This document shows, piece after piece, positions 22,344 through 39,824 of a stretch of 64,000 nucleotides of DNA. This stretch comes from Rhizobium leguminosarum (GTDB taxonomy: Bacteria; Pseudomonadota; Alphaproteobacteria; Rhizobiales; Rhizobiaceae). The first letter of the stretch is position 1, and the number at the start of each line of letters is the position of its first letter. The notes below the pieces were generated by a model. The model was not told where the DNA came from and searched no databases. It saw nothing but the letters and a program-made list of their open reading frames with translations. The position numbers were made by a program, and so were the translations under genes. The stretch is taken from the NCBI RefSeq assembly GCF_001652265.1, contig NZ_LWBS01000439.1, forward strand, positions 147,096 through 211,095. Reading direction: 5' to 3'.

Positions 22344-22904
22344 TTATTCAGCGGCAATTGCATCTGCCGTCGAGCGAGCCTTCACAAGAATGGAGGCCTC
22401 CGCCAGCGCTTGGTTTACGCGACCGAGAATAGCCGTTGACGGATTGCCATCCGTGAAATCGCGGCTCGAGGCGTAAATTGCAGTCGGCAGCACAAAGGCC
22501 TCGAAAAAAGCAAACAGCGGGCGAAGCTGATGCTCGACAACCAGGGAGTGTCGATCGCCCCCGCCGGTTGCCGTCAGGATGACGGGTTTGCCGCGCAGGT
22601 CTGCCGGATCGAGGAGATCGAAGACGTGCTTGAACAGGCCGGTATAGCTCCCCTTGTAGGTTGGCGAGCCGATGACGAGCGCTTCTGCTTGGATGATCGT
22701 TTGGATCACCTTTTTTGCTGCAGGATCGAGGTCGGCGACCGATCTTGCGGCCGCCAGTGAGGTGCCGAGGTCTTCGATGTCGAACACCGCATGCTGCAGG
22801 CCTGCCTGCTTCGCCAGCGATTCCGTGACACTTTCCACGAAGCGCCTGGTGCTGGACGGGCGGGCCAAATTGCCCGAGAAGCCGACGATCAGATCGTTGC
22901 TCAT
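22344..22904 (-). CDS. NADPH-dependent FMN reductase (SsuE/MsuE-like)
   Basis: A 186-residue flavodoxin-fold reductase: N-terminal GFSGNLARPSSTR phosphate loop, SPTYKGSYTGLFKHVFD flavin motif and TATGGGDRHSLVVEHQLRPLF, as in SsuE/MsuE. It supplies reduced FMN to two-component monooxygenases. A good AAAGGAA site precedes the ATG. Its location after the acyl-CoA-dehydrogenase-like and SsuD-like genes supports partnership with those FMNH2-dependent enzymes. Confidence 0.92.
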   Translation of the reverse strand: MSNDLIVGFSGNLARPSSTRRFVESVTESLAKQAGLQHAVFDIEDLGTSLAAARSVADLDPAAKKVIQTIIQAEALVIGSPTYKGSYTGLFKHVFDLLDPADLRGKPVILTATGGGDRHSLVVEHQLRPLFAFFEAFVLPTAIYASSRDFTDGNPSTAILGRVNQALAEASILVKARSTADAIAAE

Positions 22905-22977: not shown

Positions 22978-24159
22978 CTACGCTGTTTTGAGGACCGCCA
23001 GCTCTGCGGGATAGCTCGAGCGGGCACTTTCGTCTCTATTCCATCGATCAAAGGCAGCCCGGCCCAATATCGAAATGGATGTATCTTCCTGCGGCGCGTG
23101 GACGAGCACGGATTGGATATCCCTGAAATGCCGTTCAAGCCCCAGGTCGGCACTAAGACCCGGATTGCCGATGCCACGTACCGCGATCTGCACGGCTTCT
23201 CGCAGTTGCCGGCCTGCGATCAGCCGAGCCCTTATCATCTTTTCCGCGTCACCATGGTTGGCCTCAAGCGCGCTAAAAATAATCTGCCGAGCGCCGGAGA
23301 CGTGCAGGTCGATCTCGCCCGAGAGCGCCACAAACCGCTCTGTTCGGGCAATGGGATGGCCTAGATTGGCAGGCACGCGCTCATGCGCGAAGCGGATGAA
23401 GGCCGCTTGCGCGGCTTCGGCCGCGCCGAGATAGATCGCGGTCAGCGCCAGCGTGATCGCCGCATGGGCGCGATTGTCCTGCTGGGCCACCGACGGATCG
23501 ACGAGTTCCAGCACGTTTTCCGCCGAGATCTCGACGTCGGTATATTCGACGTCATGCGAACCTGTGGCGCGCATGCCCAGGCTGTTCCAGTTCTCGATCA
23601 CATCAATGCCGGGCAATCCGTTCGGCACGACGAACGTTCCGACACGTGCGGGCGTCTCGTCAGTATGCGCCCAGACAAGGAAATGCGTAAGACCGCGTGC
23701 GCCGGTCACGAAGCGCTTGCGACCCGTGATCGACCAGCCGTTTGCCGTGCGGCGGGCAACGGTCGCGGGTAGACCGCCACGTGCCGGAGACCCCAGTTCC
23801 GGCTCGACGCGCGCGGCGTTGAGCAATAACGGTTTCTGCTTAGCCTCCGCCAGCAGACGCCTGTACAGATCATCAGGCCAATGGTTCTTTGCGGCTTGGC
23901 CGAGATGATTGAAGATCGTCATGGCACTGATCAGCGCCACCGAGGGATCACCCCGCCCCAGCGCCGCCAGAATGTGGGCCGCATCTCCGAGCGTTCCGCC
24001 TTCACCGCCATAGCAGGTTGCGACGGTGCTCTCGAGCAGGCCGCTCCGATGAACGGCATAGATACCGGTCCAGGGAAATTGGCCGGTTCGATCCGCATCC
24101 GGTGCGGCTTCCGCGACAACACGCACGGTTTCATCGAGGACGGTTACATCATGGGACAT
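22978..24159 (-). CDS. Acyl-CoA-dehydrogenase-fold monooxygenase (SfnB/DszC-like)
   Basis: A 393-residue flavoprotein of the acyl-CoA dehydrogenase superfamily. The central region (ITGRKRFVTGARGLTHFLVWA, MRATGSHDVEYTDVEI) is conserved, but the catalytic Glu of dehydrogenases is not evident, as in the oxygenase branch (DszC, SfnB, flavin-dependent N- or S-oxygenases). Set between an SsuD-like monooxygenase and an FMN reductase, it is probably a reduced-flavin-dependent oxygenase of a sulfur compound. The start has only a weak ribosome-binding site, and 73-116-nt spacers flank it. Confidence 0.82.
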   Translation of the reverse strand: MSHDVTVLDETVRVVAEAAPDADRTGQFPWTGIYAVHRSGLLESTVATCYGGEGGTLGDAAHILAALGRGDPSVALISAMTIFNHLGQAAKNHWPDDLYRRLLAEAKQKPLLLNAARVEPELGSPARGGLPATVARRTANGWSITGRKRFVTGARGLTHFLVWAHTDETPARVGTFVVPNGLPGIDVIENWNSLGMRATGSHDVEYTDVEISAENVLELVDPSVAQQDNRAHAAITLALTAIYLGAAEAAQAAFIRFAHERVPANLGHPIARTERFVALSGEIDLHVSGARQIIFSALEANHGDAEKMIRARLIAGRQLREAVQIAVRGIGNPGLSADLGLERHFRDIQSVLVHAPQEDTSISILGRAAFDRWNRDESARSSYPAELAVLKTA

Positions 24160-24275: not shown

Positions 24276-25382
24276 TCACGCAGCACTTTTCTTCTTATTC
24301 GCCTCTTCCCGTTCGCGAATGCCTTCGCGCACCAGCGGCAGGATGTAACGGCCGTAATCGACCGCATCATTGTAATTGTCATAGCCGCGGATCGAGATCA
24401 GATCGCAGCCAAGATCGATGTAGTCGAGGATGGAATCGGCAATGGTGCGCGGCGAACCCACCAGCGCAGTGGTGGCGCCGCCAGCATTGGTCGCGGTCAC
24501 CGTCGGATACCATAGAGCGCGGTCATGGACATCGCCGCGCGCCGCGATGTCAAGAAGCCGCTGAGAGCCGACATTGGCCGGGCGTGCCGCATTGAGTGGT
24601 GCGCGTGCCAAGCCTTTCTGACGGTTTTCGTTCAGCTGGTCGAGAACTCTATGCGCCTTCTCCCATGCCAACTCGTCATTTTCCGCCACGATCGGCCGGA
24701 AGGTAACCCATATGCGAGGGCGATCCGTCCGGCCGGCCTTTGCCGCTTCTGTGTATATCCGTTCGATCTGCTGCTTTGTTTCTGCAAGCGGCTCGCCCCA
24801 GAGCCCGAAAATGTCGCCCAGAGAACCCCCGATGCGATAGGCGGCATCCGACGAACCGCCGACCGAAATCGGAATCAGGCCACTGGTTGGGCGCACCGCG
24901 CTGCGGAATTGCTTGAACTGGTAGTATTTCCCATCGAAGTCGAAGGCTTCTCTGGACGTCCAGGCCAGACGGAGGATCCGGATGTATTCTTCCTGCCGCT
25001 CGTAACGCTCCTCCTTGTTGAGGAAGTCGCCTTCGCGCGCCTGCTCTTCGTCGCTGCCGCCTGCAATGAAGTGAACGACGACACGCCCGCCGCTCAACTG
25101 ATCGAGTGTTGCAAGAGATTTGGCTGCGACCGTCGGATAGATGGTGTTCGGGCGCAAAGCCACGATGATCTTGATATGCTTCGTGTGCGCCAGGACGGTT
25201 GCGCCGAGCGTGAAGGGATCGAAGGACGAGGAGGAGTAGGGGATCAGCGTGTAGTTGAAACCGTAATCATCGAGGGCACGTGCGTACCGCTCCAGGAACC
25301 GAGGATCCACAGGTGCGTCGGGAATGGGGTTGAGGTCGTTCGACGCGTTGGGAAAGCTGACGCTAATGAATTCCGCGGGCAT
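24276..25382 (-). CDS. FMNH2-dependent alkanesulfonate monooxygenase-like (SsuD family)
   Basis: A 368-residue luciferase-like TIM-barrel monooxygenase. SsuD-type signatures include ALRPNTIYPTVAAKSLATLD, LSGGRVVVHFIAGG and EERYERQEEYIRILRLAW. It cleaves C-S bonds of alkanesulfonates or sulfones with O2 and FMNH2, releasing sulfite. AAGGAG sits 5 nt before the ATG. It is the first gene of the operon reaching 21321, and the shared dyad motif lies 59-108 nt upstream, suggesting sulfur-dependent control. The exact substrate (alkanesulfonate, methanesulfonate or a sulfone) is unresolved. Confidence 0.88.
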   Translation of the reverse strand: MPAEFISVSFPNASNDLNPIPDAPVDPRFLERYARALDDYGFNYTLIPYSSSSFDPFTLGATVLAHTKHIKIIVALRPNTIYPTVAAKSLATLDQLSGGRVVVHFIAGGSDEEQAREGDFLNKEERYERQEEYIRILRLAWTSREAFDFDGKYYQFKQFRSAVRPTSGLIPISVGGSSDAAYRIGGSLGDIFGLWGEPLAETKQQIERIYTEAAKAGRTDRPRIWVTFRPIVAENDELAWEKAHRVLDQLNENRQKGLARAPLNAARPANVGSQRLLDIAARGDVHDRALWYPTVTATNAGGATTALVGSPRTIADSILDYIDLGCDLISIRGYDNYNDAVDYGRYILPLVREGIREREEANKKKSAA

Positions 25383-25440
25383 GTGAGCTCCTTCAGGTTG
25401 CAGACCACTGCATTGACGTTAAGGCGCGGCAGCGCCACGA

Positions 25441-25490
25441 GGAAGACAGGTCATTCTCTTTCTATCGATTTTATAGAAAATATTCGCTAT
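25441..25490 (-). promoter_or_regulatory. Shared regulatory motif, copy A (promoter of 25382->21321 operon)
   Basis: On the plus strand, GGAAGACAGGTCATTCTC is followed by TTTCTAT at 25460-25466 and ATAGAAA at 25473-25479. Together these form a 7-bp inverted repeat with a 6-7-nt A/T spacer. The block recurs before two other operons of the island (32227 and 37331). It looks like a LysR-type box (CTAT-N-ATAG) overlapping a promoter. Confidence 0.65.
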
Positions 25491-25585
25491 CGCGGCGGAT
25501 GGAGTAGGACCCACTCCCCGCCATGGCGTTGACGCAGGCCGTCTTCAACTGTCCCTGCCATCGAGCCGTGTAGCCTCTGCATGGG

Positions 25586-26668
25586 TCACGAGGCAGGCGA
25601 CCAGCCAAGTCCTGGCGCGACTGTCTCGGCCAGATCGGTCAGCAGCCGGATGTTCTCGGCGAGGCCGAAGCCGGGCGGCAGGAAGAGCACGACCTCGTCC
25701 GCGGCTGCGAGGCCTGGATCATTGAACACAGCCTCAATCACTTGATCGGGCGTGCCCTGGAAGACAGGCGAAATCTGAGCGCCGGCAGGCTGGCTGGCAG
25801 GCGCGAGGGCACCTTTGGGACGCGACGCGGCAATTCCGATGGTGCGACGCTCGAAGTCATAGGCTGCGTATTTCTCTCGAAGTTCCGTGGTGGTCCCAAC
25901 CAGGATGGAGGCGGCGACGGCGACGGGTGGCGGCTCCGTTCCCCAGATCGTGAGCCAGGTGACGCGGAACCTCTCGATGATGCGAGCCTGGTATTGCCCG
26001 AAAGTCTCGCCCTCGGCCTGGCCGTGCTGCACGGTTCCCGAGATAAGTCCGATCCCGAGTTCGGCTGCCTGCACGGCGGAGCTCAGGCTGGCTGAACCTT
26101 GCCGAATGCGGGAGCGTAGGGTCGGGCTATGCGGCGTTACCCGCAATTCGGCGCCTTGCGGAGCACCCTGACCCGGCGAAACGACAGTGTGGAGGACTTC
26201 GCCTGCAATCGCTGAGAGGAAGCGTGCCTGGCGGCGTTTGGCTTCCGTCCGGGCGTCGGCGTCAACCGCGCCGAACACCGCGTCGAATGCCGCGTTGGCA
26301 CCGGTCGAGATGGCAAGTTCCAGCCGGCCGTCGATCAGCAAGTCGGTCGTGCCGGCCGCTTCGGCGAGCAGGATCGGATCCTGGTAGCGCATTGGGATGA
26401 CTGCCGATCCCAGGTTGATGCGCTTGGTGTGCTGACCGGCGGCGGCAAAGAACGGAAGCGGTGAGGAGAGGTAATGGTCGAAATGTCGCTGGTAGGCCCA
26501 TCCCGACTGGTAACCCAGCCGCTCTGCTTCCTTGAACAACGCGATACCGTCGCGCAGACCTTGCGCCGGCCCGGTCTCGTCATTGAACGATACCCTGGTG
26601 TTGAAGCCAAGCCGCCGCTTTGGGCGGAACGACGCGGGCTGGTGATTGACGGGCGCAGCAATGGTCAT
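25586..26668 (-). CDS. Luciferase-like monooxygenase (LLM class flavin-dependent)
   Basis: A 360-residue LLM-fold oxidoreductase: LGFNTRVSFNDET start region, ALFKEAERLGYQSGWAYQRHFDHY, TKRINLGSAVIPMRYQDPILLAEAAGTTDLL. It is not an SsuD orthologue; it resembles the putative LLM proteins that accompany peptide/nickel-type importers in soil bacteria. Its start overlaps the dual-ATPase stop by 4 nt (ATGA), so it belongs to the importer operon. It probably oxidises the imported compound using FMNH2 from the SsuE-like reductase (inference). Confidence 0.87.
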   Translation of the reverse strand: MTIAAPVNHQPASFRPKRRLGFNTRVSFNDETGPAQGLRDGIALFKEAERLGYQSGWAYQRHFDHYLSSPLPFFAAAGQHTKRINLGSAVIPMRYQDPILLAEAAGTTDLLIDGRLELAISTGANAAFDAVFGAVDADARTEAKRRQARFLSAIAGEVLHTVVSPGQGAPQGAELRVTPHSPTLRSRIRQGSASLSSAVQAAELGIGLISGTVQHGQAEGETFGQYQARIIERFRVTWLTIWGTEPPPVAVAASILVGTTTELREKYAAYDFERRTIGIAASRPKGALAPASQPAGAQISPVFQGTPDQVIEAVFNDPGLAAADEVVLFLPPGFGLAENIRLLTDLAETVAPGLGWSPAS

Positions 26669-28395
26669 GCGATCTTTTCCCTGCTGATAATGCGACGGGG
26701 TTCCAGGCGTGACACGCGGGCATCCCCGGCAATGCCGGATGGGATCGATTCCAGCAGCGAGCGGGTATAGGGCTGCTGGGGTCTTTCAAAGACGTCGGTG
26801 ACGGTCCCATGTTCGACGATGCGTCCGCGCTGCATCACCGAGACGGTGTGGGCGAGTTGGCGAACCAGGGCCAGGTCGTGGGATACGAATACATAGGTCA
26901 AGCCAAGCTTGGCCTGCAGCGAAAGCAGTACCTCGACGATATCCGCCTGGACGCTGACGTCGAGCGCGGAAGTGGGCTCATCTAGCACGATCACATCAGG
27001 TTTGAGGACCAGCGCTCGGGCGATCGCCACGCGCTGGCGCTGGCCACCTGACAAGGCTTCCGGCCTGCGCAAAAGCAGGTGTTCTCCTAGTCCGACATTG
27101 GCCAGCGCTTCGCGGACTCGCTCGGCGCGTTCGTTGGCTGTTCCGATCTTGAACCGGTCGAGCGGTTCGCGCACCAGCTGCTCGACTTTCCAGGTCGGGT
27201 CCAGCGAGGTGAACGGATTCTGATAGACGAGCTGAAGGTGGCGCCATACCGCGCGCAGCGACTCGTGCGAACGACCATGGAGCTGCTCGCCGGCGACCGC
27301 GATCGTGCCGATGTCGGGTTGTTCGAGCCCAAGCAGCAGCCGGATTGCCGTCGTCTTGCCCGAACCGGATTCGCCGACCAGCGCGTGTGTGGTGCCAGCC
27401 TGGACGGCAAACGACACGTCGTTGACGGCCGTCAGAACCTTGCCGTCCACCGTGAAAGTCTTGGTGACGCCGCTAACCTCGATCTTCGGTGCCTTGTCGG
27501 CCTTGGTCCCGAGGAAACGGAAGGCGGGATCGCGCAGCGCACGGTAGCGGTCCGGGTTTAGCGCCGGGACGTCGGCATGCAACTTCCTAGCATATGCCGA
27601 GGCGGGCGCAGAGAAGACAGCCGCAGTGTTGCCGGCTTCCTGAACGACGCCGTCCTTGAGGACCACCAGCGCATCGGCCCGCTCGGCGGCGATCGCCAGG
27701 TCGTGGGTGATGAGGAGCAAGCTGATCTCAAGCTCGTGCTGCAACTTGGAAAGCAGGTCGAGGATGCGCTTCTGGATCGTGACGTCGAGCGCCGAGGTCG
27801 GCTCGTCCGCGACCAGCAGCAACGGGCGTGGAAGAACGGCAAGGCCGATCAACACGCGCTGCAGCATGCCGCCGGACAGTTGGTGCGGGTAGGAGTCGTA
27901 CACGCGCTGGGGGTTGTCGAGCCCGACCTGGGCGAAGGTTTCCAGGACGAGCGCCTTGCGGATTGCCGTGTTGGGTTCGTCGATGAGCGCGGCCGCCTCC
28001 ATCGCCTGGGCGCCGATCGTCCGGACGGGGTTGAGCGAATTGCCGGGGTCTTGCGGCACGAACCCGATAGCGCGTCCTCGCAGTGGCCGGAAACGACGTT
28101 CCGAGAGCCCCAGCACCTCCTGGCCGTCGAACTCGACGCGGCCGGTCGCGCGTCCACCCGTGGGGAGCAGTCGCAACACCGCGCGAGCGATCGTCGATTT
28201 GCCCGACCCTGACTCTCCGATGAGGGCGAGGCTCTTGCCGCGGCCGAGTTCAAACCCGACGTCGCTGACGACTTCCTGCTGTCCGTAGGAAACCGACAGC
28301 CCGTCGATCCGGAGCAGGGGGGCCGATTGCGGGAGCGCCGATCCGGTGGCGTCAATACGGGCGAAAAGCTCTGTCAGTCTGTCTTGCGAAGCCAT
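26665..28395 (-). CDS. Double-NBD oligopeptide-type ABC ATPase (DppD-DppF fusion, GsiA-like)
   Basis: A 576-residue protein with two complete NBDs. The first has Walker [19 protein letters not shown] and VADEPTSALDVT. The second has GESGSGKTT, LSGGQRQRVAIARAL and VIVLDEPTSALDVS. This fused architecture occurs in GsiA/YliA-type importers. Start MASQDRLTELF at 28395 overlaps the permease stop by 22 nt; the frame is open upstream but only through the permease gene. It energises the two permeases encoded immediately before. Confidence 0.92.
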   Translation of the reverse strand: MASQDRLTELFARIDATGSALPQSAPLLRIDGLSVSYGQQEVVSDVGFELGRGKSLALIGESGSGKSTIARAVLRLLPTGGRATGRVEFDGQEVLGLSERRFRPLRGRAIGFVPQDPGNSLNPVRTIGAQAMEAAALIDEPNTAIRKALVLETFAQVGLDNPQRVYDSYPHQLSGGMLQRVLIGLAVLPRPLLLVADEPTSALDVTIQKRILDLLSKLQHELEISLLLITHDLAIAAERADALVVLKDGVVQEAGNTAAVFSAPASAYARKLHADVPALNPDRYRALRDPAFRFLGTKADKAPKIEVSGVTKTFTVDGKVLTAVNDVSFAVQAGTTHALVGESGSGKTTAIRLLLGLEQPDIGTIAVAGEQLHGRSHESLRAVWRHLQLVYQNPFTSLDPTWKVEQLVREPLDRFKIGTANERAERVREALANVGLGEHLLLRRPEALSGGQRQRVAIARALVLKPDVIVLDEPTSALDVSVQADIVEVLLSLQAKLGLTYVFVSHDLALVRQLAHTVSVMQRGRIVEHGTVTDVFERPQQPYTRSLLESIPSGIAGDARVSRLEPRRIISREKIA

Positions 28396-29222
28396 CGGCT
28401 GATCCTGTTCACAGAAAGGACGGTTGCGATCGTGACGAATGCGGGCGCGTAAACGAGCCACGGCCATTTGAGGTAATCCTTGCCGATCGAGATCAGCAGG
28501 CCCCAGTCGGAGGCGGGCGGCGGGTCGCCGTAACCGAGGAAAGCGAGGCTGGCGATCACCAGGATCGAGTCGCCGAACTGCAGCACTGCAAGCGGCAGCA
28601 CCGAGCGCGACGCGTTCGGCAGCACGTGGCGCCACAGGATGTGCCAGCGCGATCCACCCAGGAGAAATGAAGACTCGACGAACGTCGCCTGCCGGGTCTT
28701 GATGACCTCCGAGCGCATCACCCGGGCGAAGAGAGCCACCGCCGAGACGCCGGTTGCGATGGCGGCGTTCGTGGTGTCGAAGCCGATCGCGGTGACGACG
28801 ATGACGGCGAGCAGGAATTTTGGAATTGCAAGCAGCACGTCGACCAGGCGGGCAAACAGGGTATCCACCCAGCCGCCGAAGAAGCCGGCCAGCAGGCCGA
28901 TGGGGCCGCCGGCGACAACGCCGATGACCACGGCGATCAGCGCGCTCGCCACAGAGGAGGCCGTGCCATAGACGACGCGGGTATAGAGGTCGCGACCGAG
29001 GTGATCAGTGCCGAACCAGTGTGCCGCACTGGGGCCCAGCAGCTTTTGCGCGGGAACGCCGTTGACCGGGTCGTAGCTCGTGAACAGGCTCGGGGCGAGC
29101 GACCAGGCGATCGCGAGCGCGACGATTGCGAAAGAGAGCGCAACGACCGGCGGCATGCGGAGCGCCCTCAGTCGGCTGATCGCCGTGGCGCGCGAGGGAG
29201 AATAGGCGGAGGCGAGGGTCAT
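28374..29222 (-). CDS. Oligopeptide-type ABC transporter permease (DppC-like)
   Basis: A 282-residue permease: an N-terminal helix, HWFGTDHLGRDLYTRVVYG, several helices, coupling loop ESSFLLGGSRWHILWRHVLPN, then LAFLGYGDPPPASDWG. All are DppC-type. It starts inside the end of the DppB-like gene (ATGA overlap at 29219-29222) and runs into the ATPase gene, giving tightly coupled translation. Confidence 0.92.
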   Translation of the reverse strand: MTLASAYSPSRATAISRLRALRMPPVVALSFAIVALAIAWSLAPSLFTSYDPVNGVPAQKLLGPSAAHWFGTDHLGRDLYTRVVYGTASSVASALIAVVIGVVAGGPIGLLAGFFGGWVDTLFARLVDVLLAIPKFLLAVIVVTAIGFDTTNAAIATGVSAVALFARVMRSEVIKTRQATFVESSFLLGGSRWHILWRHVLPNASRSVLPLAVLQFGDSILVIASLAFLGYGDPPPASDWGLLISIGKDYLKWPWLVYAPAFVTIATVLSVNRISRWLRKTD

Positions 29223-30229
29223 GGCGTCACCACCTTGGAAATGCCGACGGAAATTTCGTCGGCTGTGGTTGGACGACGCTCGGGAGCGCCGAGGAGCTTT
29301 ACGCGCGGGTCGAGCAGCGGGTAGGCAAGATCGGCGATCAGGTTGACGATCACGAAGACCACCGCCGCCAGCGAGACGACCGCCTGAAGCACGGGCAGGT
29401 CCTGCGTGCTCACCGACCGCTGTACCAGGCTGCCGAGACCGGTGCGTCCGAACACCGTTTCGGTAATCAGCGAGCCGCCAAGCAGTTCGCCGATGGTCAG
29501 CGCGATGACGGTGACGACAGGGAGCGACGACGGCTTGAGCAGGTGCTTGGCGAACAGGCGCATTTGCGAAAGGCCGCGACCGCGCGCGACGGCGGCGTAT
29601 TCCTGCCCGGACTCATGGTCGAGGTTGGCGATGAGGACTTCGGCGATTTGCGCGGAGATGGGGATGCCGAGCGCGATCGCCGCGAAAAGTGTCGCCCAGA
29701 AGCTGTCGGGCTCGATCACGCGAAAGACGCCGAACTGGAAACCGAAGAGGTGGATCAGCACCAGGCCGATCACGAAGTTGGGCACCGACAGGAACAATGA
29801 CGGGAAACCTCGCAGCAGGCCTTGGCCGAACCGTTTCGGAAGAAACTGTGTGCCATAGGCGATCACCGCTGCGAGAATAAGTGCTGTGACGAGACCTGCG
29901 GAAGCAAGCACCAACGTCGACGGGAGCACCTCGGCAATCAGGGTCGTCACAGGCCGATTGGTCCGCATCGACAGGCCCAGATCGCCGGTCACGAAGCCGG
30001 AAAAGGATGTCCATAGCTGCACCGGGATCGGCTTATCCAGGCCCTGGGCGGCGATGATCTCCTTGATCTCCTCCTGCGTGAACCCGTTTTGAGGATTGTT
30101 CAGGACATTGGTGATCGGGTCGCCGGGCAGGATGCTGACGACGACGAAGGTGAAGACATAAGTCAGCAGGATCACGACGATCGCCTGCACGAGGCGCTTT
30201 GCGGCGTAGTTGAGGTAAGGTTTGCTCAT
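29219..30229 (-). CDS. Oligopeptide-type ABC transporter permease (DppB-like)
   Basis: A 336-residue permease beginning MSKPYLNYAAKRLVQAIVVI. It has the SILPGDPITNVLNNPQNG external loop, AAVARGRGLSQMRLFAKHLLKP coupling loop and NLIADLAYPLLDPRVKL terminus. ATG at 30229 is selected because AGAAGG lies 8 bases upstream; the alternative GTG at 30238 overlaps that site. It pairs with the DppC-like subunit. Confidence 0.92.
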   Translation of the reverse strand: MSKPYLNYAAKRLVQAIVVILLTYVFTFVVVSILPGDPITNVLNNPQNGFTQEEIKEIIAAQGLDKPIPVQLWTSFSGFVTGDLGLSMRTNRPVTTLIAEVLPSTLVLASAGLVTALILAAVIAYGTQFLPKRFGQGLLRGFPSLFLSVPNFVIGLVLIHLFGFQFGVFRVIEPDSFWATLFAAIALGIPISAQIAEVLIANLDHESGQEYAAVARGRGLSQMRLFAKHLLKPSSLPVVTVIALTIGELLGGSLITETVFGRTGLGSLVQRSVSTQDLPVLQAVVSLAAVVFVIVNLIADLAYPLLDPRVKLLGAPERRPTTADEISVGISKVVTP

Positions 30230-30268
30230 GCCTGTCACCTTCTTGCGTTGTCCGGTTGAATTGCGGGA

Positions 30269-31915
30269 CTATTCGCTTTTCCTGGCCGTGTAGTAGCTGG
30301 CGTAGGCAACGCCGTTGTAGATCTCGCCCTTGAGCTTGGGAGACTGCACGTAGATGCGTTGGACGATTTGCGTGCGCGGGATGAAGTAGCCCTGGTCGAG
30401 GATGTACTTCTGCAACTCGTCCAGGAGCGGTTTGCGGCTTTCGGTGGAACCAGCGCTGGCGATCTTGTCGCGTAGCTCGTTGAGCGTCTTGTCGCTCTCG
30501 TCGAGGGCGAACCAGTTCTCGCCGTTGTTGGCGTTCGTCAGGATGCTGGCGACGGTGCCTGCGTCGATGAAGCTGCGCGTCACTTCGTAGGCCGGCACAG
30601 CCGGACCACCGTATTTGACCTTTTGGCCGAAGGTGACGACATCGTAGGCACGGATAGCGACTTTCCAGCCGATCTTGCCGAGTTGCTGGGCGATGAGTTC
30701 GTCGACCGATTTCGACGTCGCGAGGTAGGGGTTGGAATGCAGCGTCAGCACGAGCGGCTCGCCGTTCTTCGTCCGGATGCCGTCGGCGCCCTTGACCCAA
30801 CCGGCCTCATCCAGAAGCTTCTCGGCCTTTTCGGGGTTGTAGGCCAAGAGGTCGCTTTGGTCGGTCGCTCCCGGCACGTTGCTCTGGATGAACGATGTCG
30901 CGAGCTTCCAATCGGGCGTGTAGACAGTGTCGATGATCTCCTGGCGATTGATACCGGCCTGGAGGGCCTGGCGTACTTTCAGGTCATTGTAAGGCGCGAG
31001 CTTGGTGTTGATCGCCCAGCCGTTCACGAAGCCGAGATAGCGTGGTGTCGCGGTGGTGAAGCCCTCTGCCTTGAGAGACTCCAGCTCCTGCGGCGAGGCG
31101 TTGTAAGCGACGTCGGCTTGGCCGGACTGCACAGCGGCAACGCGCAGCGAGGGCTCGGACACCAGCTTGTAGGTGATTGTGTCGAGAAAAGCCGGGCCAG
31201 TGTGGCCGACGGCAGCGGGACCCCAATTGTAATCCTTGCGCTTGACCAGCTTGACGAAGTCGCCTTCCTTCCAGGAATCGACCACGTAGGGGCCGCTGCC
31301 GGAGGTCTTGCTGAGGTCGGCCTGCTGGGCGGCGGGCTGCGCGAGGGTCTTCGGGGAGATGAGGATCGAGCCGTGGTAGCCGAGGGTCGGGATGAAGCCG
31401 AGTGTCGGCTTCTTGAAGAAGACCTTCACCGTGGCCGCGTCGATTGCTTCGGCGTGGTCGTAGGTCTTCGGAAAGAGCCCAATCGGGTTGATACCGTCAC
31501 TCTTGCGGCCGGCGTACCAGATATCGAGGTTGGCGACGACGGCCGACGCATCGAGCGCGGTGCCGTCGGAGAAGGTCACGCCGCTCTTCAGGTGCAGGGT
31601 GAACTCGGTGGCCGTGTCGTTCTGATCCCACTTCTCGGCGATCCAGGGGCTGACCTTGCCGTCAGCGTCGACGTAGAGGAGCTTGTCGGTCACGTGGCCC
31701 CAGATGTGGCCCTGGAAGCTGGAGATCGCGCTGTTGTTCGGGATCCAGGTGTCACCCAGCGAGTCGATCAGGAAAGTGATCTCACCGCCATTGCCGTCAG
31801 CGCTCTGAGCCGACGCGAAGCCTGCCGTTGCCACCAAAAGTGCGGTCGCCGCCACGGACGTCGTTATCAGCAGGCGGCGCCGGGAAAGAGAGAGCAACGT
31901 AGAACGTTCGGTCAT
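30269..31915 (-). CDS. Periplasmic solute-binding protein, family 5
   Basis: A 548-residue SBP_bac_5 protein. The N-terminus SRRRLLITTSVAATALLVAT is a twin-arginine-like or Sec signal with cleavage after FASAQ (about residue 37). Family motifs: FTLHLKSGVTFSDGTALDAS, DLKVRQALQAGINRQEIIDT. ATG 31915 has AGGA 7 bases upstream. It is the first gene of the importer-LLM operon. Shared motif copy B lies about 310 nt upstream, implying a long leader or a distal operator. The cargo is inferred to be an organosulfur compound from its neighbours only. Confidence 0.9.
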   Translation of the reverse strand: MTERSTLLSLSRRRLLITTSVAATALLVATAGFASAQSADGNGGEITFLIDSLGDTWIPNNSAISSFQGHIWGHVTDKLLYVDADGKVSPWIAEKWDQNDTATEFTLHLKSGVTFSDGTALDASAVVANLDIWYAGRKSDGINPIGLFPKTYDHAEAIDAATVKVFFKKPTLGFIPTLGYHGSILISPKTLAQPAAQQADLSKTSGSGPYVVDSWKEGDFVKLVKRKDYNWGPAAVGHTGPAFLDTITYKLVSEPSLRVAAVQSGQADVAYNASPQELESLKAEGFTTATPRYLGFVNGWAINTKLAPYNDLKVRQALQAGINRQEIIDTVYTPDWKLATSFIQSNVPGATDQSDLLAYNPEKAEKLLDEAGWVKGADGIRTKNGEPLVLTLHSNPYLATSKSVDELIAQQLGKIGWKVAIRAYDVVTFGQKVKYGGPAVPAYEVTRSFIDAGTVASILTNANNGENWFALDESDKTLNELRDKIASAGSTESRKPLLDELQKYILDQGYFIPRTQIVQRIYVQSPKLKGEIYNGVAYASYYTARKSE

Positions 31916-32452
31916 GAGCAAATCCTGATGGTTCGGGTTGTGTTCGATAGGGTTGCGGCGCTGGCTGTTGCCGTTCCGCAAACGCATTTTGTTCCTGGTG
32001 TCGCTGCATCAGGCGTACGGCATCATCCGCCGGCAGACTTATTGACCGGCGAAGGCGCTCGCCCTGACCGCGAGATGATTATGACTGGGTAAGCAGCCTG
32101 ATGAGTGTCGCGGCGCGGCCGCAAGGCTCACTTTCTGATCGCTATTTGCCTCTCGGCATTGGATGCGTTCCTCAGTTTCTTTGACAAAATTCATGAGGGA
32201 CAGCCTAGGCAATGCGCATCGACCTAGAAAGACTGGTTATTCTTTTTCTATAGTTTTTGTAGATTTTTTTGTTTCGTTTCCGGTCTCGGTAGGGATCAGC
32301 TTTTTGCGGTGTGTGGAGATCCTTAACGCGGCACGTTTTTCAACAAGAGGGCGCGTTTGGATCGAGGATTTCCAGCCCTTGTTGTTCAGTGACCCCAGGA
32401 GGCAAACGCCTCTATAGGCAGGGTTCGCCGGGCGGCAGGTGCCATCGGGGAT
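31916..32452. other. Long intergenic region upstream of importer operon
   Basis: About 537 bases between the binding-protein start and the end of the BisC-like gene. No convincing gene is seen. It contains a T-rich stretch with the shared motif (copy B, 32227-32267). Confidence 0.5.
32227..32267 (-). promoter_or_regulatory. Shared regulatory motif, copy B (importer-LLM operon)
   Basis: Plus-strand text GAAAGACTGGTTATTCTT is followed by TTTCTATAG and then TTGTAGAT, aligning base for base with copies A and C through the GACaGGT-n-ATTCTc-TTTCTAT block. The right half of the dyad is partly decayed (TAGA only). Confidence 0.55.
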
Positions 32453-34786
32453 TCACTTTGGATCGGCGATCCTGCCGGGCTCGGCAGCACCCTCCACGAA
32501 TTTCATCGTCTCGAATATCCGCACAGGGGGAAGCTCGCCGACAAAACGTTCTACCTCCACTCTGGTGAGCTGCCCGGTCGACGCCTGGGCGAGTTGGGAG
32601 GTTCCGACGTCGCGGGTAAGGATATTCGGATTGCCGTGCACGCACATGGCCTTGTCGGCGGCCGCATCGTCCGGTTCGAACCATGCACCGGTCGCAAGCT
32701 GCATCACGCTCTCTCGCACGTCCTCGCTGATCACCGCCGCCGCAAGGCAACCGCCGCGCGCGTTGAACAGCCTGACAATATCGCCATCCGAGATGCCGCG
32801 CCTGGCCGCGTCAACCGGGTTGATGCGAACGGGTTCCCGGCCTTTTATCTTGGTGGAACGGCTGAAATCGCCGTAGTCCAGCTGACTGTGCAGTCGCTGA
32901 TGCGGCTGGTTGCAGACCAGATGGAGTGGGAAGCGGCTTTCATCCCCCTCTGTCTCTGCCCTGGGCGGATACCATCGCGGATGGCCGCGGCAATCGTCAT
33001 ATCCGAAGCTTTCGACCGTCTGCGAAAAGATCTCGATCTTTCCGGATGGCGTCTGTAGCGGAGATCCGGACGGATCATCTCGAAAGGCGCGCGCTGGTCC
33101 GCCATCGTTGGGCTTGAGCGGCAGGCGCATCTCTCCACGCTCCCAGAACGCCTCGAAGGCGGGAGCCTGGTGCCCGGCGGCGGCAAGCGCCTTTTGCGTC
33201 GTCTCGAAAAGAAAGGCGAGCCATTGCTTGCTGGTCCGGTTTTCGGTGAACTCTTCGATCTTGCCGAGACGGCGCGCTATCTCGGAGAAAATCTCATAAT
33301 CGTCCCGTGCTTCGCCGACCGGCTTGATCAGCTTCTTCATGGCGACCATCAGCGGATCGCGGTCCGCCGCACCGATATCGTTACGCTCGAGCGTGGTCGT
33401 CGCCGGCAGCACGATGTCCGCGTGACGCGCCGACGAGGTCCAGGCCGTCTCATGGACGATGATGGTCTCCGGTTTCTTGAAGGCCGCCCGCAGCCTGTTG
33501 ATATCCTGATGGTGATGGAACGGGTTGCCTCCCGCCCAATAGACAAGGCGGATGTCGGGATAACGCATCGCCTGGCCGTTATAGTGGAATATGTCGCCTG
33601 GATTGAGGAGCATATCGGCGATACGCGCGACGGGAATGAAATCCGCCACGGGATTTTTGAACTGGCCAAGGGTCGGCAATGGAACGCCAAGCTGGCCCTT
33701 ACCGATATTCCCCAAAGCGCCGAGGGAATAGGCATAGCCGCCGCCATCCAGTCCCATCTGCCCGAGCATTGCTGCCAGCACGACGCCCATCCAGACAGGT
33801 TGCTCGCCATGGTCGGCTCGCTGGAGGGAATGGCTGACGGTAATCAACGTCCTGGCGCCTGCCATGGTTCGCGCTAGATCCCGGATGGTTTCGACGCCGA
33901 TTCCGCAGATGTGGGACGCCCATTCCGGGCTCTTTTCGACGCCATCGGTCCGACCGAGCAGGTAGTCCTCGAAACGCTCGTAGCCAATTGTATAGTTGTC
34001 GAGAAATCCGCGGTCGTGCAGTCCCTCACTGACGAGCGCATATGCAACGCCGAGCATCAGCGCGACATCGGTACCCGGTATAATCGGCAGCCATTGTGCA
34101 TTCAGTTCGGCTGGAAAATCGTCCTTCAGCGGGCTGACGAGGACAAAGCGCGCCCCGCGCTCGCTCGCGCCGTTCAGCGTCTGGCGCACAATATGCGCGC
34201 TGATGCCGCCGCCATGCACGTCCGTGTTCTTGAGCGCCATTCCGCCGAAGGCGACGACCAGTTCGCTGCTCCGCTCGATGGCATCCCAGGTGACGCTCTT
34301 GCGGTCGAAATGGTCGTATGGTCCCAATACATGCGGGAGGATGACCATTGCAGCGCCGGAGCTGTAGGTGTTGACGGAGCTGACGTAACCACCCAGCACG
34401 TTGAGAAACCGGTGGATCTGGCTTTGCGCATGGTGGAAGCGTCCGGCGCTCGACCAGCCGTAGGATCCTCCGAACACGGCCTGCGGACCAAAATTTCCGT
34501 AAACGCGCTGCAGCTCTTTTGCGACGAGGTCAGCTGCGCGCCGCCAACTGACCTCGACATAGTCGTCCGCCCCGCGATTCTGCGCGTGATCCGGCGTGCC
34601 TTCGAGCCAGCCGCGCCTGATCGCCGGCCGCCTGATACGCATAGGGCTATGGGCGATCGCCGGAAGGTTGCCCAGCAACGGCGAGGGATGCGGATCGCCC
34701 GGATGAGACCTGACTTCAAGACTTCCGTTTTCGTATCGGCCTGAAAACGCTCCCCAATGGGAGCTGTGGGTCTTGAACCTGTTCAT
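32453..34786 (-). CDS. bisC: Biotin/methionine-sulfoxide-reductase-like molybdoenzyme
   Basis: A 777-residue molybdopterin oxidoreductase of the DMSO/TMAO/BisC branch. The Mo-ligand serine lies in GGSYGWSSAGRFHHAQSQIH, the family-typical GSYGW-S-G-HH pattern. Further motifs are NTYSSGAAMVILPHVLG, WAGGNPFHHHQDINRLR and the C-terminal molydopterin-binding domain (VRLFNARGGCLAAAVI). There is no Tat signal or N-terminal Fe-S motif, so it is cytoplasmic, like BisC rather than TorA/DorA. It would reduce S-oxides (or N-oxides) of small molecules, matching the organosulfur neighbours. It may share a transcript starting at motif copy C. Confidence 0.88.
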   Translation of the reverse strand: MNRFKTHSSHWGAFSGRYENGSLEVRSHPGDPHPSPLLGNLPAIAHSPMRIRRPAIRRGWLEGTPDHAQNRGADDYVEVSWRRAADLVAKELQRVYGNFGPQAVFGGSYGWSSAGRFHHAQSQIHRFLNVLGGYVSSVNTYSSGAAMVILPHVLGPYDHFDRKSVTWDAIERSSELVVAFGGMALKNTDVHGGGISAHIVRQTLNGASERGARFVLVSPLKDDFPAELNAQWLPIIPGTDVALMLGVAYALVSEGLHDRGFLDNYTIGYERFEDYLLGRTDGVEKSPEWASHICGIGVETIRDLARTMAGARTLITVSHSLQRADHGEQPVWMGVVLAAMLGQMGLDGGGYAYSLGALGNIGKGQLGVPLPTLGQFKNPVADFIPVARIADMLLNPGDIFHYNGQAMRYPDIRLVYWAGGNPFHHHQDINRLRAAFKKPETIIVHETAWTSSARHADIVLPATTTLERNDIGAADRDPLMVAMKKLIKPVGEARDDYEIFSEIARRLGKIEEFTENRTSKQWLAFLFETTQKALAAAGHQAPAFEAFWERGEMRLPLKPNDGGPARAFRDDPSGSPLQTPSGKIEIFSQTVESFGYDDCRGHPRWYPPRAETEGDESRFPLHLVCNQPHQRLHSQLDYGDFSRSTKIKGREPVRINPVDAARRGISDGDIVRLFNARGGCLAAAVISEDVRESVMQLATGAWFEPDDAAADKAMCVHGNPNILTRDVGTSQLAQASTGQLTRVEVERFVGELPPVRIFETMKFVEGAAEPGRIADPK

Positions 34787-34805
34787 TTGACAGTATCCTC
34801 GGCGA

Positions 34806-34946
34806 TCAGGCCGTTTTCAGACTGGCCAGTGAAACCTGTTCCGGAAGGATTTTTCCCGGATTCATGATGCCTTTCGGATCGATGGCATTCTTGATGACGG
34901 CCATGAGGACGCAAAACAGGGCCGCCGCCTCGGAGCGGTCAGCCAT
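34806..34946 (-). pseudogene. FAD-linked oxidase C-terminal fragment
   Basis: Between the BisC and DsbA-like genes the minus strand encodes AVIKNAIDPKGIMNPGKIL followed by a short tail and stop. This is the hallmark C-terminus of GlcD/D-lactate-dehydrogenase-type FAD oxidases (IK-A-DP-GI-NPGK). Only about 45 residues remain, so it marks a deletion within a former operon. Confidence 0.7.
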
Positions 34947-34960
34947 GTTTTTGCGATGGA

Positions 34961-35563
34961 TCAGGCGATGAGCTTTTCGCCCTTCATGTGACGCTCGAGG
35001 AAGGGCAGGCTGTCCTGCCCCCAGTAAAGTTCGCCGTCATAGCGGAAGGTCGGAAGCCCGAAGACGCCGGCGCCCCTGGCCGTCTCATAATTTGCTTTCC
35101 AGGCGGATTGCACAGTTTCGCCCTGGGCACGTATTTCCAAAGCCGCGCCATCGAAACCCGCGGCATCGGCGATCGCACGACCGACCTCTGCGTCACCGAT
35201 ATTTTCTCCGCGCAACCAGAAGGCCTCCTGCAGCGCTTTCGTCAGCCTGAGCCAGTCTTCGCCCGCATCGATGGCGGCAAGGACAAGGAAGCCGGCGGGC
35301 GTTGGATCCGACAAGGCTGCACGGTTTTCGAAGTTCAGGGTTTTGCCCCGGATGGCCGCCCAACGCTTGAGATCCGTCGTCCAATAAGCCCGACGGGCCT
35401 CCGGCCGGTTGCGAGAATAGATCGCGCCATTATCCTCAATCAGGGGGATGACATAGGGGCGGATCGTCGCGTTTTGTTCGGAGGCCAGTGCCGCGAATGG
35501 CTCCAAGCCGATGAAAGCCCATGGCGAGCCGATGCCGAAGAAATAGTCGATGGTCTTTGTCAT
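34961..35563 (-). CDS. DsbA-fold 2-hydroxychromene-2-carboxylate isomerase family protein
   Basis: A 200-residue thioredoxin/GST-kappa-fold protein: MTKTIDYFFGIGSPWAFIGLE, where the active position is Ser (GSPW) rather than the CxxC of disulfide oxidases; AFWLRGENIGDAEVGRAIADAAGFD; GVFGLPTFRYDGELYWGQDSLPFLE. These are HCCA-isomerase signatures, a glutathione-dependent family. It follows the TetR gene by 12 nt. It may isomerise or conjugate a glutathione-linked intermediate (inference). Confidence 0.87.
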   Translation of the reverse strand: MTKTIDYFFGIGSPWAFIGLEPFAALASEQNATIRPYVIPLIEDNGAIYSRNRPEARRAYWTTDLKRWAAIRGKTLNFENRAALSDPTPAGFLVLAAIDAGEDWLRLTKALQEAFWLRGENIGDAEVGRAIADAAGFDGAALEIRAQGETVQSAWKANYETARGAGVFGLPTFRYDGELYWGQDSLPFLERHMKGEKLIA

Positions 35564-35575
35564 ATTCTGATGCTT

Positions 35576-36145
35576 TCAAGATGTCCGGTCGTGGAGGGCC
35601 GTGGCGTCGAAGACGGAAAGTGCGCAGTCTCGGGCGACGAGGACCGCTGTCGGGTCACGTCCGACTGCCACCGTCGCAAGCGCGCCTTCATAAAGAAGCG
35701 ATAGATGCGCGGCAGTCTGGTCAAGGCCGAGCCCGGCCTTGGATATGACGGCGCGGAAGATGTCGCCTACGGCTTTCTTATGTGTGCGAGCGACCGTCAC
35801 GACGCGTTCGGAATCGCCATGCTCGGCCACCGCAAGAGCAAATGCGCAGCCCCGGAACTCCGGGCTGTCGGCCTTTTCATACAGGCGCTCGAAAATAACT
35901 CTGACCTGGTCTCTCGGAGCACCCGTCGCGTCCAAGGCCTCCCGCAAGGAGCGAATAACACGTTCGTGGCGATCCTGGAGATAGGCTGCAACAAGATGAT
36001 CTTTGGACGGGAAGTGTCGATAGAGCGTTGCCTTTGCAACTTTCGCTTCTTCGATAATGCGATCTATCCCAACAGCCCGAATACCTTCGCTGTAAAATAG
36101 CCCGCCGGCTGCGGCGAGGATCTGATCTGATATGGGTTCTCTCAT
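35576..36145 (-). CDS. TetR-family transcriptional regulator
   Basis: A 189-residue regulator with an N-terminal HTH (FYSEGIRAVGIDRIIEEAKVAKATLYRHFPSKDHLVAAYL) and a ligand-binding C-terminal domain of the type often found with redox enzymes. It lies between the ketopantoate-reductase-like and DsbA-fold genes with 52- and 12-nt gaps, so it is probably co-transcribed with both and may sense a substrate of the pathway. Confidence 0.92.
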   Translation of the reverse strand: MREPISDQILAAAGGLFYSEGIRAVGIDRIIEEAKVAKATLYRHFPSKDHLVAAYLQDRHERVIRSLREALDATGAPRDQVRVIFERLYEKADSPEFRGCAFALAVAEHGDSERVVTVARTHKKAVGDIFRAVISKAGLGLDQTAAHLSLLYEGALATVAVGRDPTAVLVARDCALSVFDATALHDRTS

Positions 36146-36197
36146 TGGATCGCTTCAGGTTGGTGGTTGCATCGTTGAACAATTGGAAGGCGACACA

Positions 36198-37226
36198 TCA
36201 GGTCGTTGCGGCGAGACCGGTGTTGCTTCCCTGATAGGGTCTGTCGACAAGTGATTGAATCGCGTCAAGCGCCAGTGCGTTGGTGAAGCCGCCTTGATGC
36301 TCCAATCTGCCAGCAAGATTCTGGACAACCTCATTGTAGGGTGTCGGAATATTGTGCAAACGACCCAGCAAGACGATTTCGCCGTTGAGAAAATCGACTT
36401 CACTCGAAGCGCCTCTGGTAAAACTTTGCCAAGTCGATTGTTGACCGGGATGGATGCCACTGTCCTGAGCTATGCGCCACCCTGAAAGATCTGTGGTCCG
36501 CTCAGAGGGTGAAGCGAGGTTATAACCGGCAGCCTCAAGAGCTTGGCGAGCTTCATTGACCAGCGCGTCTGCGATTGAGACGCGGAGATCCTCGGCCCCA
36601 ACGAACAATTCCAAGACGTTTCGAACGTTGTGACGAAGTTTGGCTGATTTCCAACGGCGGATGTCGTTGCTGGTTTCCGCCAGATAATGAGCGCGGTTGA
36701 GGTCCGCCGCAATCTGCTCGGCTGTTTCATCAGAGCCCGACGGGAAACGCCCTATGGTGACCACGCCGACCTGCGGATCACCCGCCACCGCAACGCAGCC
36801 CGTTTCGGTAAACCGTGCCGGCGTCAGAATACTGGCTCCGTAAACCCTGGCGAACGTTCTGAGCGCCATCGCTTCTGTCGCCAAGCCATTTTGAAAGGTG
36901 ACGACGGGGAGACTGGCAGCCGTTGCACCCGCTGAATCCGACACTTGACGCCATGACCAGGAGGCCAGGGCGCTTGCCGCGTCCTGAGTTTTGACCGTCA
37001 ACAACAGGATATCATCGAGGGCCAATTTGGGCGGGTCGCTGAGGTCGAGAGCGTTAAGCCCGATCTGTCGCTTGCCGGAGGGACGCTGGTAGCTCAGACC
37101 ATATCTCTTTATATGGCCGATCTGTGCGCCACGTCCGACGAGCGCATATGTGATGCCGGCAAGTTCGAACTGCGCAGCGAGGCTTGCACCCACCGCGCCT
37201 GCCCCCACGATAACGTATCGTGTCAT
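36198..37226 (-). CDS. Ketopantoate-reductase-like (ApbA/PanE family) oxidoreductase
   Basis: A 342-residue NADPH-dependent reductase: Rossmann VIVGAGAVGASLAAQFELAG near the N-terminus, LLTVKTQDAASAL, FQNGLATEA, and a C-terminal ApbA_C-type helical domain with WKSAKLRHNVRNVLEL and RGASSEVDFLNGEIVLLGR. The K..N..E catalytic pattern fits 2-oxo-acid reduction. ATG 37226 sits just after GGAAGAG; the TTG at 37238 would include that site. Its promoter region holds motif copy C, so this paralogue is probably not the housekeeping panE. Confidence 0.88.
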   Translation of the reverse strand: MTRYVIVGAGAVGASLAAQFELAGITYALVGRGAQIGHIKRYGLSYQRPSGKRQIGLNALDLSDPPKLALDDILLLTVKTQDAASALASWSWRQVSDSAGATAASLPVVTFQNGLATEAMALRTFARVYGASILTPARFTETGCVAVAGDPQVGVVTIGRFPSGSDETAEQIAADLNRAHYLAETSNDIRRWKSAKLRHNVRNVLELFVGAEDLRVSIADALVNEARQALEAAGYNLASPSERTTDLSGWRIAQDSGIHPGQQSTWQSFTRGASSEVDFLNGEIVLLGRLHNIPTPYNEVVQNLAGRLEHQGGFTNALALDAIQSLVDRPYQGSNTGLAATT

Positions 37227-37330
37227 CTCTCTTCCCAAATCTGATTTATGACCAATGCGGACTAGCGTGTGGCGTCAGCCAGGAGGTCGACAAGCCCACG
37301 TTCGAAACATAGGCATGTAAATGGACCGAA

Positions 37331-37375
37331 GAAAGACAGGTCGTTCTCTTTCTCTCCTGATTTCGTAGAAAATAG
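37331..37375 (-). promoter_or_regulatory. Shared regulatory motif, copy C (37226->32453 genes)
   Basis: GAAAGACAGGTCGTTCTC on the plus strand is nearly identical to copy A, followed by TTTCTCT and GTAGAAAA as a slightly degraded dyad. It lies 105-149 nt upstream of the ketopantoate-reductase-like start. The surrounding 37227-37526 spacer shows no gene. Confidence 0.6.
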
Positions 37376-37526: not shown

Positions 37527-38303
37527 CTAGACGAGCGAGTCTACGACGCCGCCATCGACTCTCAGTGCCGCGCCGGTCGTCGCGGACGCCTGGAGGGACG
37601 CGACGTAGACCACCATGTTCGCAACCTCCTCGACGGTTGCCGGCCGCTGAATGATGGAGGTCGGACGATGCGTCTTGACGAAGTCGATGCCGGCTTGCTC
37701 GAAGGACCGCTCGGCGGTGACATGCCCCTTGAGCATCTCGGCGGCGCCTTCGGACATGGTCGGGCCCGGTAGCACCGAGTTCACCGTCACTCCCGTGCCA
37801 GCCATGCGCTTGGCGAGACCGCGTGCAACTGCAACGTCGGCGGTCTTGCTGACGCCGTAGTGGATCATCTCGACAGGGATATTGAAGGCGGATTCCGAAC
37901 CGAGGAAGATGAAGCGCCCCCACGATTTGGCAGCCATTTTCGGAAGGTAGGCGCGCGCCAGGCGCACGCCGGCCATGACGTTGACCTGCCAGTGGCGGTC
38001 CCAGATCGCATCGTCGGTCTCGAAGAAATCCAGCGGCTGAAAGATTCCGAGGTTGCTGACGACAATGTCCGGCTCGGGTTCGGCCCGGATCATCGCGTCA
38101 CAACCCTCGGCGCTGGCGAGGTCGAGCGCATGACCGCGCGCACGGCCGCCGAGGCGCGCCACCGCTGCATCGACCTTTTGCCGGGTGCGGCCGTTGATAA
38201 CTACCGCTGCGCCCACCTCATGGAGGCCGCGGGCAATGGCAAATCCGATGCCATCGGTGGATCCTGTAACCAGGGCGACTTTACCTGAAAGGTCGATGTT
38301 CAA
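37527..38303 (-). CDS. Short-chain dehydrogenase/reductase
   Basis: A 258-residue SDR. NAD(P)-binding GSTDGIGFAIARG near the N-terminus, NLG(I) segment SNLGIFQPLDF, catalytic Ser (FLGSESAFN), Tyr (YGVSKTADV) and Lys in YxxxK form are all present, as is PGPTMSEG. The start is taken as TTG 38301-38303 because AGGAG lies 7 nt upstream; an ATG at 38342 is possible. It could oxidise or reduce an alcohol/carbonyl of unknown nature. It is 120 nt from the NmrA-type gene and may share its MarR control. Confidence 0.87.
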   Translation of the reverse strand: MNIDLSGKVALVTGSTDGIGFAIARGLHEVGAAVVINGRTRQKVDAAVARLGGRARGHALDLASAEGCDAMIRAEPEPDIVVSNLGIFQPLDFFETDDAIWDRHWQVNVMAGVRLARAYLPKMAAKSWGRFIFLGSESAFNIPVEMIHYGVSKTADVAVARGLAKRMAGTGVTVNSVLPGPTMSEGAAEMLKGHVTAERSFEQAGIDFVKTHRPTSIIQRPATVEEVANMVVYVASLQASATTGAALRVDGGVVDSLV

Positions 38304-39811: not shown

Positions 39812-39824
39812 GCCGCATACCTAA

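Follow-up and report, generated by a model that had tools for sequence, protein, structure and literature searches.

Genes and control sequences of the island

We analysed a 64,000-nucleotide stretch of Rhizobium leguminosarum DNA (contig NZ_LWBS01000439.1, positions 147,096 to 211,095; hereafter the window), in which a motif of about 45 bp stands before three minus-strand operons. The island that they form is well supported as serving organosulfur acquisition. The host genome assembly (8.18 Mb, 472 contigs, 93% complete) is close to Rhizobium ruizarguesonis / leguminosarum, and the TetR-family regulator of the third operon is 98% identical to its counterpart in R. ruizarguesonis UPM1133. By its sequence, each motif copy is a pair of adjacent sites rather than a single LysR box. 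An Rfam scan of the window returned zero RNA families. The genes of the island are:

21321..22325, minus strand: D-2-hydroxyacid dehydrogenase (domain search)
22344..22904, minus strand: NADPH-FMN reductase, MsuE type (TIGR03566, 221.3 bits, cut-off 212.5)
22978..24159, minus strand: acyl-CoA-dehydrogenase-like oxidoreductase (weak SfnB match, below cut-off)
24276..25382, minus strand: SsuD-like luciferase-like monooxygenase (below the SsuD equivalog cut-off)
25586..26668, minus strand: second luciferase-like monooxygenase, LLM2 (TIGR04027-like, below cut-off)
26665..30238, minus strand: importer, two permeases and a double ATPase (Pfam for the permease at 29219-30238 and the ATPase at 26665-28635)
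30269..31987, minus strand: Opp/Dpp-type substrate-binding protein, SBP (likely start near 31915; TIGR04028-like, below cut-off)
32453..34786, minus strand: BisC-type molybdopterin S/N-oxide reductase (TIGR00509, 939.7 bits, under the cut-off of 1017.55)
34961..35563, minus strand: DsbA-fold oxidoreductase (domain search)
35576..36145, minus strand: TetR-family regulator, candidate operator reader (PF00440 TetR_N, 5.8e-15; phylogenetic footprint)
36198..37238, minus strand: ketopantoate-reductase-like protein, KPR (likely start near 37226)

The remaining importer frame (28374-29222) was assigned from its relatives in the loci of TetR relatives. The operons behind the three copies are those that a first-pass annotation had described: an SsuD-like set, an importer and monooxygenase set, and a KPR-TetR-DsbA-BisC set.

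Two sites in each motif copy

The three copies, designated A, B and C, lie where they had been placed, at 25441-25490, 32227-32267 and 37331-37375. Their elements are:

25416..25421, minus strand: -10-like hexamer TAACGT, 18 nt past operator A (putative promoter)
25440..25457, minus strand: predicted TetR-type operator, copy A, before the SsuD-like operon (plus strand AGGAAGACAGGTCATTCT; orthologous sites in relatives)
25461..25477, minus strand: sulfur box, copy A (exact TCTA-N9-TAGA)
32202..32207, minus strand: -10-like hexamer TAGGCT, 18 nt past operator B (putative)
32226..32243, minus strand: predicted TetR-type operator, copy B, before the importer operon
32247..32263, minus strand: sulfur box, copy B (TCTACAAAAACTATAGA on the minus strand)
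37306..37311, minus strand: -10-like hexamer TATGTT, 18 nt past operator C (putative)
37330..37347, minus strand: predicted TetR-type operator, copy C, before the KPR-TetR-DsbA-BisC operon
37353..37369, minus strand: sulfur box, copy C (one mismatch, TCTA-N9-GAGA; 5-bp gap)

The GAAAGACaGGT..ATTCT block forms an imperfect 18-bp palindrome, AGAAnGACnnGTCnTTCT. Every copy consists of this palindrome and, 3 bp away in A and B and 5 bp away in C, a 17-bp TCTA-N9-TAGA box. The blocks GAAAGACaGGT, ATTCTc and TTTCTAT, reported at first as shared in the same spacing, recur overall in this way. Copy A departs from the pattern with GGAAGAC in place of GAAAGAC, and copy C (TTTCTCTC) is two bases longer, the spacing being identical only up to TTTCT. 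The TTTCTAT/ATAGAAA dyad, noticed before in copy A alone, is also present in copy B and, with one mismatch, in copy C. In copy A this dyad is the second element, the 17-bp box, distinct from the palindrome.

Allowing up to three mismatches, the 24-mer RGAAAGACNGGTYRTTCTYTTTCT matched only the three copies in the window and nothing (0) in 100 shuffles. In the whole genome, a 17-mer core was found in four places at up to one mismatch, three of them the window copies. At two mismatches it had 18 places vs 24 for the reversed-pattern control, and looser matches therefore carry no meaning. The small number of core matches argues against a common promoter element. A housekeeping sigma element, which the first-pass annotation had given as an example of a counter-explanation, does not fit: the core is rare, and nine of the 15 other sulfur boxes lie at sulfur genes (see below).

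The palindrome follows the TetR gene of the third operon

For comparison we fetched the best 80 of 195 TetR-relative loci (L027-L106). Of these, 67 are related loci (L027-L093) and 13 are distant homologues (L094-L106, 36-45% identity), which were handled separately. Genes in the fetched loci were called by a codon-score script, using no annotation. Reversed patterns, column-permuted palindromes, column-shuffled boxes and shuffled windows served as controls.

At up to two mismatches the palindrome occurred in 150 places, in 66 of the 67 related loci (mean of 40 column-permuted palindromes, 6.7); L093 had none at this threshold. The 150 places include coding, wrong-orientation and KPR-internal sites that were not counted as promoters, namely two coding 'LLM2' sites, one wrong-orientation 'SDR' site and 14 KPR-internal 'TetR' sites. 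We read 145 sites, accepting two mismatches if a recognised gene followed and otherwise one. Ninety-one, from loci that differ in the order of their genes, precede a KPR (13), SBP-importer (50) or SsuD-like (28) unit, and none of the 91 falls within a called gene. Another 36 stand before tetR: eight with a sulfur box (two mismatches allowed), 14 box-less and intergenic, and 14 within the 3' end of KPR. The box-less intergenic sites are found where tetR stands apart from KPR, 57-101 bp ahead of it. Among the 13 distant loci, six had a match (up to two mismatches) within 300 bp upstream of tetR, two each in the actinobacterial genera Actinomycetospora, Streptomyces and Curtobacterium. Permuted patterns gave a mean of 0.13 loci, and 2 of 300 permutations reached six.

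The simplest reading of these sequences is that the palindrome is the predicted operator of the operon-3 TetR, which would bind it. Some results weigh against this. The 14 sites inside the KPR 3' end may be a coding coincidence; a -10-like hexamer at 18-20 nt was found for seven of the 36 tetR-proximal sites, 28 having none; and permuted palindromes resembling the true pattern scored up to 82 sites and up to 59 loci. Given the KPR-internal sites and the missing hexamers, autoregulation of tetR, the second gene of operon C in the window, stands on weaker ground than regulation of the three operons.

Beyond copy C, the window carries SDR, NmrA-like, alpha/beta hydrolase, GST and TetR2 genes (37527-42919), among which the 24-mer search of the window found no copy. 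Their relatives occur together mainly in L027, L029 and L059, and partly in L051 and L093. TetR2 (42347-42919) was considered as the reader of the palindrome and rejected: among L027-L106 it was detected only in L027, L029, L051, L059 and L093, the last being palindrome-less.

Promoter frame and geometry

A TAnnnT hexamer begins 17-19 nt past the operator in all 50 SBP and all 28 SsuD-like promoters, and in 9 of the 13 KPR promoters. The three window promoters have it at 18 nt. By comparison, 15% of shuffled segments hold TAnnnT anywhere in the scanned 20 nt. If this hexamer is taken as the -10 element, the operator would span roughly -48 to -31 and so lie over the -35 region, where a repressor would be expected.

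The sulfur box (up to two mismatches) was present in 86/86 structural promoters outside five Rhodobacterales loci, 82 of them at up to one mismatch, and in 0/5 structural promoters of those five. We take L086 and L088-L090 to be Rhodobacterales; L085 is Neomegalonema. Column-shuffled box patterns were found in a mean of 11.6 of the 86 promoters. Their maximum was 71/86, for a pattern resembling the true one, which counts against the specificity of the result. Over 108 boxed sites the gap between operator and box was 3 bp in 97, 4 bp in nine and 5 bp in two, the two centres being about two helical turns apart. The palindrome and the box are separable, and their spacing is near-fixed.

A near-fixed 3-bp gap and an A+T-rich dyad region would also suit a TetR protein that alone covers the whole 45-bp region, with the dyad as an extension of its operator or as an A+T-rich UP element. 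We consider this very improbable, as the dyad is found genome-wide without the palindrome, and the palindrome without the dyad in the 14 intergenic tetR-proximal sites and in the promoters of the five Rhodobacterales loci (5/5).

A sulfur box across the genome

The second element is a 17-bp TCTA-N9-TAGA box with an A+T-rich middle. In the own genome, TCTAYNAANTNNRTAGA (up to one mismatch) gave 25 strand matches, corresponding to 18 places, and the reversed pattern gave two. Fifteen places are outside the window. Nine of them lie in or before sulfur-acquisition clusters, with FMN reductases, several luciferase-like monooxygenases, a TauD-like dioxygenase, SsuA-like binding proteins and cysH. 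Three are seemingly in or beside unrelated coding sequence, and three are unclear (C187, C451 and C77:101116). At five of the sites read, box and start codon are 34-86 bp apart; the distance is 116 bp for the tauD-like gene and 165 bp for cysH.

The exact 20-mer box had 35 matches among 61 relatives and a further search of 199 family genomes gave 19, the two sets having three box-positive genomes in common; the reversed pattern had 0 in both. About eleven of the 16 new loci from the 199 genomes have sulfur or TetR-regulon genes nearby (cysH in two cases, cysG, tauD-like, luciferase-like monooxygenases, SBPs). About five (L277, L278, L280, L283 and L286) have no evident sulfur gene, which counts against the proposed regulon. 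At the cysH promoter the box was found in 30/30 Rhizobium loci, 21 exact and nine with one mismatch. There it overlies the -10 element that follows an invariant TTGACA, hence a repressor position. Because it recurs near cysH, tauD-like, ssuA-like, flavin-reductase and luciferase-like monooxygenase genes, we assign TCTA-N9-TAGA, from its sequence context, as the box of a genome-wide sulfur regulon.

Several observations were made around these boxes. A fusion of a luciferase-like monooxygenase and a DsbA-fold protein, which are separate genes in the window, is encoded near a sulfur box (L172:7595-8815, G000:C44). A small protein of about 64-89 aa (xKQVIEhxGxxVGVVVPD) follows sulfur boxes or neighbours the Rrf2B gene described below. 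The one at L177:8076-8270 had no match in Pfam or NCBIfam, and similar ones are in L043, L213, L327, L329, L332-L335, L337 and L339. By eye, an exact sulfur box lies about 150 bp ahead of a groES-like gene in L228/L239 (G002:C5:197922).

Candidate readers of the box

Rrf2B, an Rrf2-family protein (PF02082, 2.9e-37; TIGR00738 above cut-off), is encoded elsewhere in the genome (G000:C165:52844-53251) and was first met near boxes in L038 and L287. It was present in 14 of 18 box-positive vs 59 of 181 box-negative genomes (p = 2.5e-4, phylogeny ignored). A match was present in 73 genomes; we sampled 30 of these, taking one Rrf2B locus from each. Neighbouring genes include a sulfate SBP, a taurine SBP, SfnB-like oxidoreductases, luciferase-like monooxygenases and flavin reductases. 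The 30 loci hold five boxes (up to one mismatch), four of them between Rrf2B and the adjoining gene. The reversed pattern gave 0, and shuffled patterns a mean of 0.17, 0/200 reaching five. Four cysteines (C-x8-C-x2-C-x5-C) are kept in 30/30 aligned Rrf2B proteins.

Given the two-site architecture, these genomic associations make Rrf2B the probable reader of the box. Several points count against it. Box-less loci at up to one mismatch are the majority (25/30, the own L319 included); four of the 18 box-positive genomes lack Rrf2B at the threshold used, two of these being under 2 Mb; the co-occurrence p-values, for Rrf2B as for the paralog treated next, ignore phylogeny; and in the composite promoters the box is centred near -60, no classic repressor position, unlike that at cysH.

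A further point against Rrf2B is its paralog Rrf2A, 45% identical, whose gene flanks cysH. The two-site architecture would be kept if the box were read by Rrf2A, which is divergent from cysH, or by both paralogs. The box lies between Rrf2A and cysH in 30/30 Rhizobium loci, as it does in L279 and L282, which represent two other genera, and this makes Rrf2A a rival. We read six other-genus Rrf2A-cysH regions in full, excluding L248, where cysH is 1350 bp away. Five of the six have no box, but all six keep dyads like GGAGAGATATTTGCTCC (0-3 mismatches). The co-occurrence of Rrf2A with the box was also weaker (6/16 vs 23/135, p = 0.058). On these results Rrf2A was demoted from lead reader; reading by Rrf2A or by both proteins appears unlikely. 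GGAGAGATATTTGCTCC itself, which lies between Rrf2A and cysH, is a further 17-bp dyad with N9 spacing (L180:8241-8257, with equivalents in L244, L246, L247, L249, L250 and L251). Its one exact occurrence in the own genome is at cysH, and its loose matches number 47 vs 27 for controls. It is probably an Rrf2A operator or a leader element.

The first-pass annotation had proposed one regulator, probably of the LysR type as in CysB or Cbl control. Within the two-site architecture this would mean a LysR-type activator at the box. TCTA-N9-TAGA does meet T-N11-A, the LysR rule, and LysR-type activators bind near -60, about where the box is centred in the composite promoters. However, no CysB ortholog was found in the 93%-complete assembly (best match 29% identity, 75 bits), and LysR genes do not recur beside the box, being neighbours at 3/16 box loci (L277, L286 and L288) with a different gene each time. 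The short box-to-start-codon distances at five sites and the overlap with the cysH -10 element suit a repressor better. A LysR reader therefore seems quite unlikely to us. The idea of a single LysR-type regulator gives way to a palindrome that tracks TetR and a dyad that is a separate box with an Rrf2 candidate. What stood of the proposal is that the three operons share a control sequence tied to organosulfur acquisition, and on this sequence basis their co-regulation is supported.

Related regulons and a possible substrate

In relatives, the TetR regulon takes in other genes: FecCD/Peripla_BP_2 importers together with a monooxygenase of the NtaA type, importers like SsuABC, GlcD-like oxidases and a 3-mercaptopyruvate sulfurtransferase. 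From these swapped-in genes we guess that the substrate is a sulfur-bearing 2-hydroxy or 2-keto acid.

The Peripla_BP_2/FecCD/ATPase importer and the NtaA-type monooxygenase stand behind the operator at L034:4495-13504, L047:4465-8871, L085:13171-17616 and L091:5347-9816. The versions in L034, L047 and L091 carry the sulfur box, and that in L085 is without it. L034 also encodes a 3-mercaptopyruvate sulfurtransferase (above cut-off) and a GlcD-like oxidase.

A proposed two-input promoter

The motif probably combines two control sites, one for a local repressor encoded within the cluster and one for a genome-wide signal of sulfur supply, and these root-nodule bacteria would turn on organic-sulfur scavenging only if both agree. 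We consider it likely that the three promoters are composite, each with a TetR operator and a sulfur-regulon box that would most likely be read by the CymR-like Rrf2B. TetR, on the palindrome over the presumed -35 element, would keep the three operons off until it has bound a pathway-specific organosulfur ligand. The box, about two helical turns upstream, would report the sulfur status of the cell through Rrf2B. The scavenging operons would then be expressed under sulfur shortage in the presence of the substrate, and not otherwise. Rrf2B could repress by blocking the A+T-rich upstream region, or it could activate; repression is somewhat more likely. The sequence comparisons establish the two elements, their arrangement, how far they are conserved and distributed, and which genes they accompany; binding, the ligand, the direction of the Rrf2 effect and the promoter start are inferred.

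A more specific version may also be put forward, with slightly less than even confidence. In CysB-less Rhizobiaceae, an uncharacterised four-cysteine Rrf2 protein, maybe sensing sulfur or Fe-S status, would read TCTA-N9-TAGA genome-wide. The island box, locked two helical turns from the TetR operator, would form with it an AND gate serving a new organosulfur pathway, possibly that of a mercaptolactate- or mercaptopyruvate-type compound. Such a compound is suggested by the 3-mercaptopyruvate sulfurtransferase of the related version.

In the open-licence literature we found nothing on rhizobial TetR-sulfonate or Rrf2-sulfur regulators, and sulfur sensing in CysB-less rhizobia appears undescribed in its searchable part. 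The Klebsiella cassette names KPN_01854/01858 were also considered and set aside. The present analysis supplies a box together with its proposed regulon, and a candidate regulator whose cysteines are conserved. It places ketopantoate-reductase-like, DsbA-fold, BisC-type and Opp importer genes within one sulfur-acquisition regulon. A single promoter with near-fixed spacing could join local substrate sensing and global sulfur status.

Comparison with known systems

CymR of the Firmicutes is an Rrf2-family cysteine/sulfur regulator. After the superfamily model, CymR was the best equivalog for Rrf2B, with 80.5 bits, far below the cut-off of 195. The scores against IscR (78.8 bits), NsrR (57.3 bits) and RirA (43.7 bits) were all below the equivalog cut-offs. 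Rrf2B keeps four cysteines, whereas CymR is not known to carry a cluster, and Rrf2B is not known to partner with CysK. LysR control by CysB, Cbl or SsuR acts on the same type of target genes. The island differs from it in the position of the box and in having a TetR gene in the cluster, and the search of this assembly for a CysB ortholog found none.

The box of RirA, TGA-N9-TCA, has the same N9 spacing as the sulfur box. RirA, an iron regulator of rhizobia, is likewise an Rrf2 protein of the Alphaproteobacteria (PMC10510648). It differs from the system proposed here in serving iron genes and in its half-site, and Rrf2B matches its model only at the low score given above.

The operator of McbR, a TetR-family protein of Corynebacterium glutamicum, is TAGAC-N6-GTCTA, with another half-site spacing than the palindrome of the island. 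In that species, McbR shares its sulfur and sulfonate promoters with SsuR/CysR (PMC2580772). McbR is described there as the global sulfur repressor, with ROK-type partners (CysR dual, SsuR an activator), whereas the TetR of the island looks local and the proposed global regulator is an Rrf2 protein. A TetR-family repressor and a second regulator meeting at sulfur promoters would be common to both systems.

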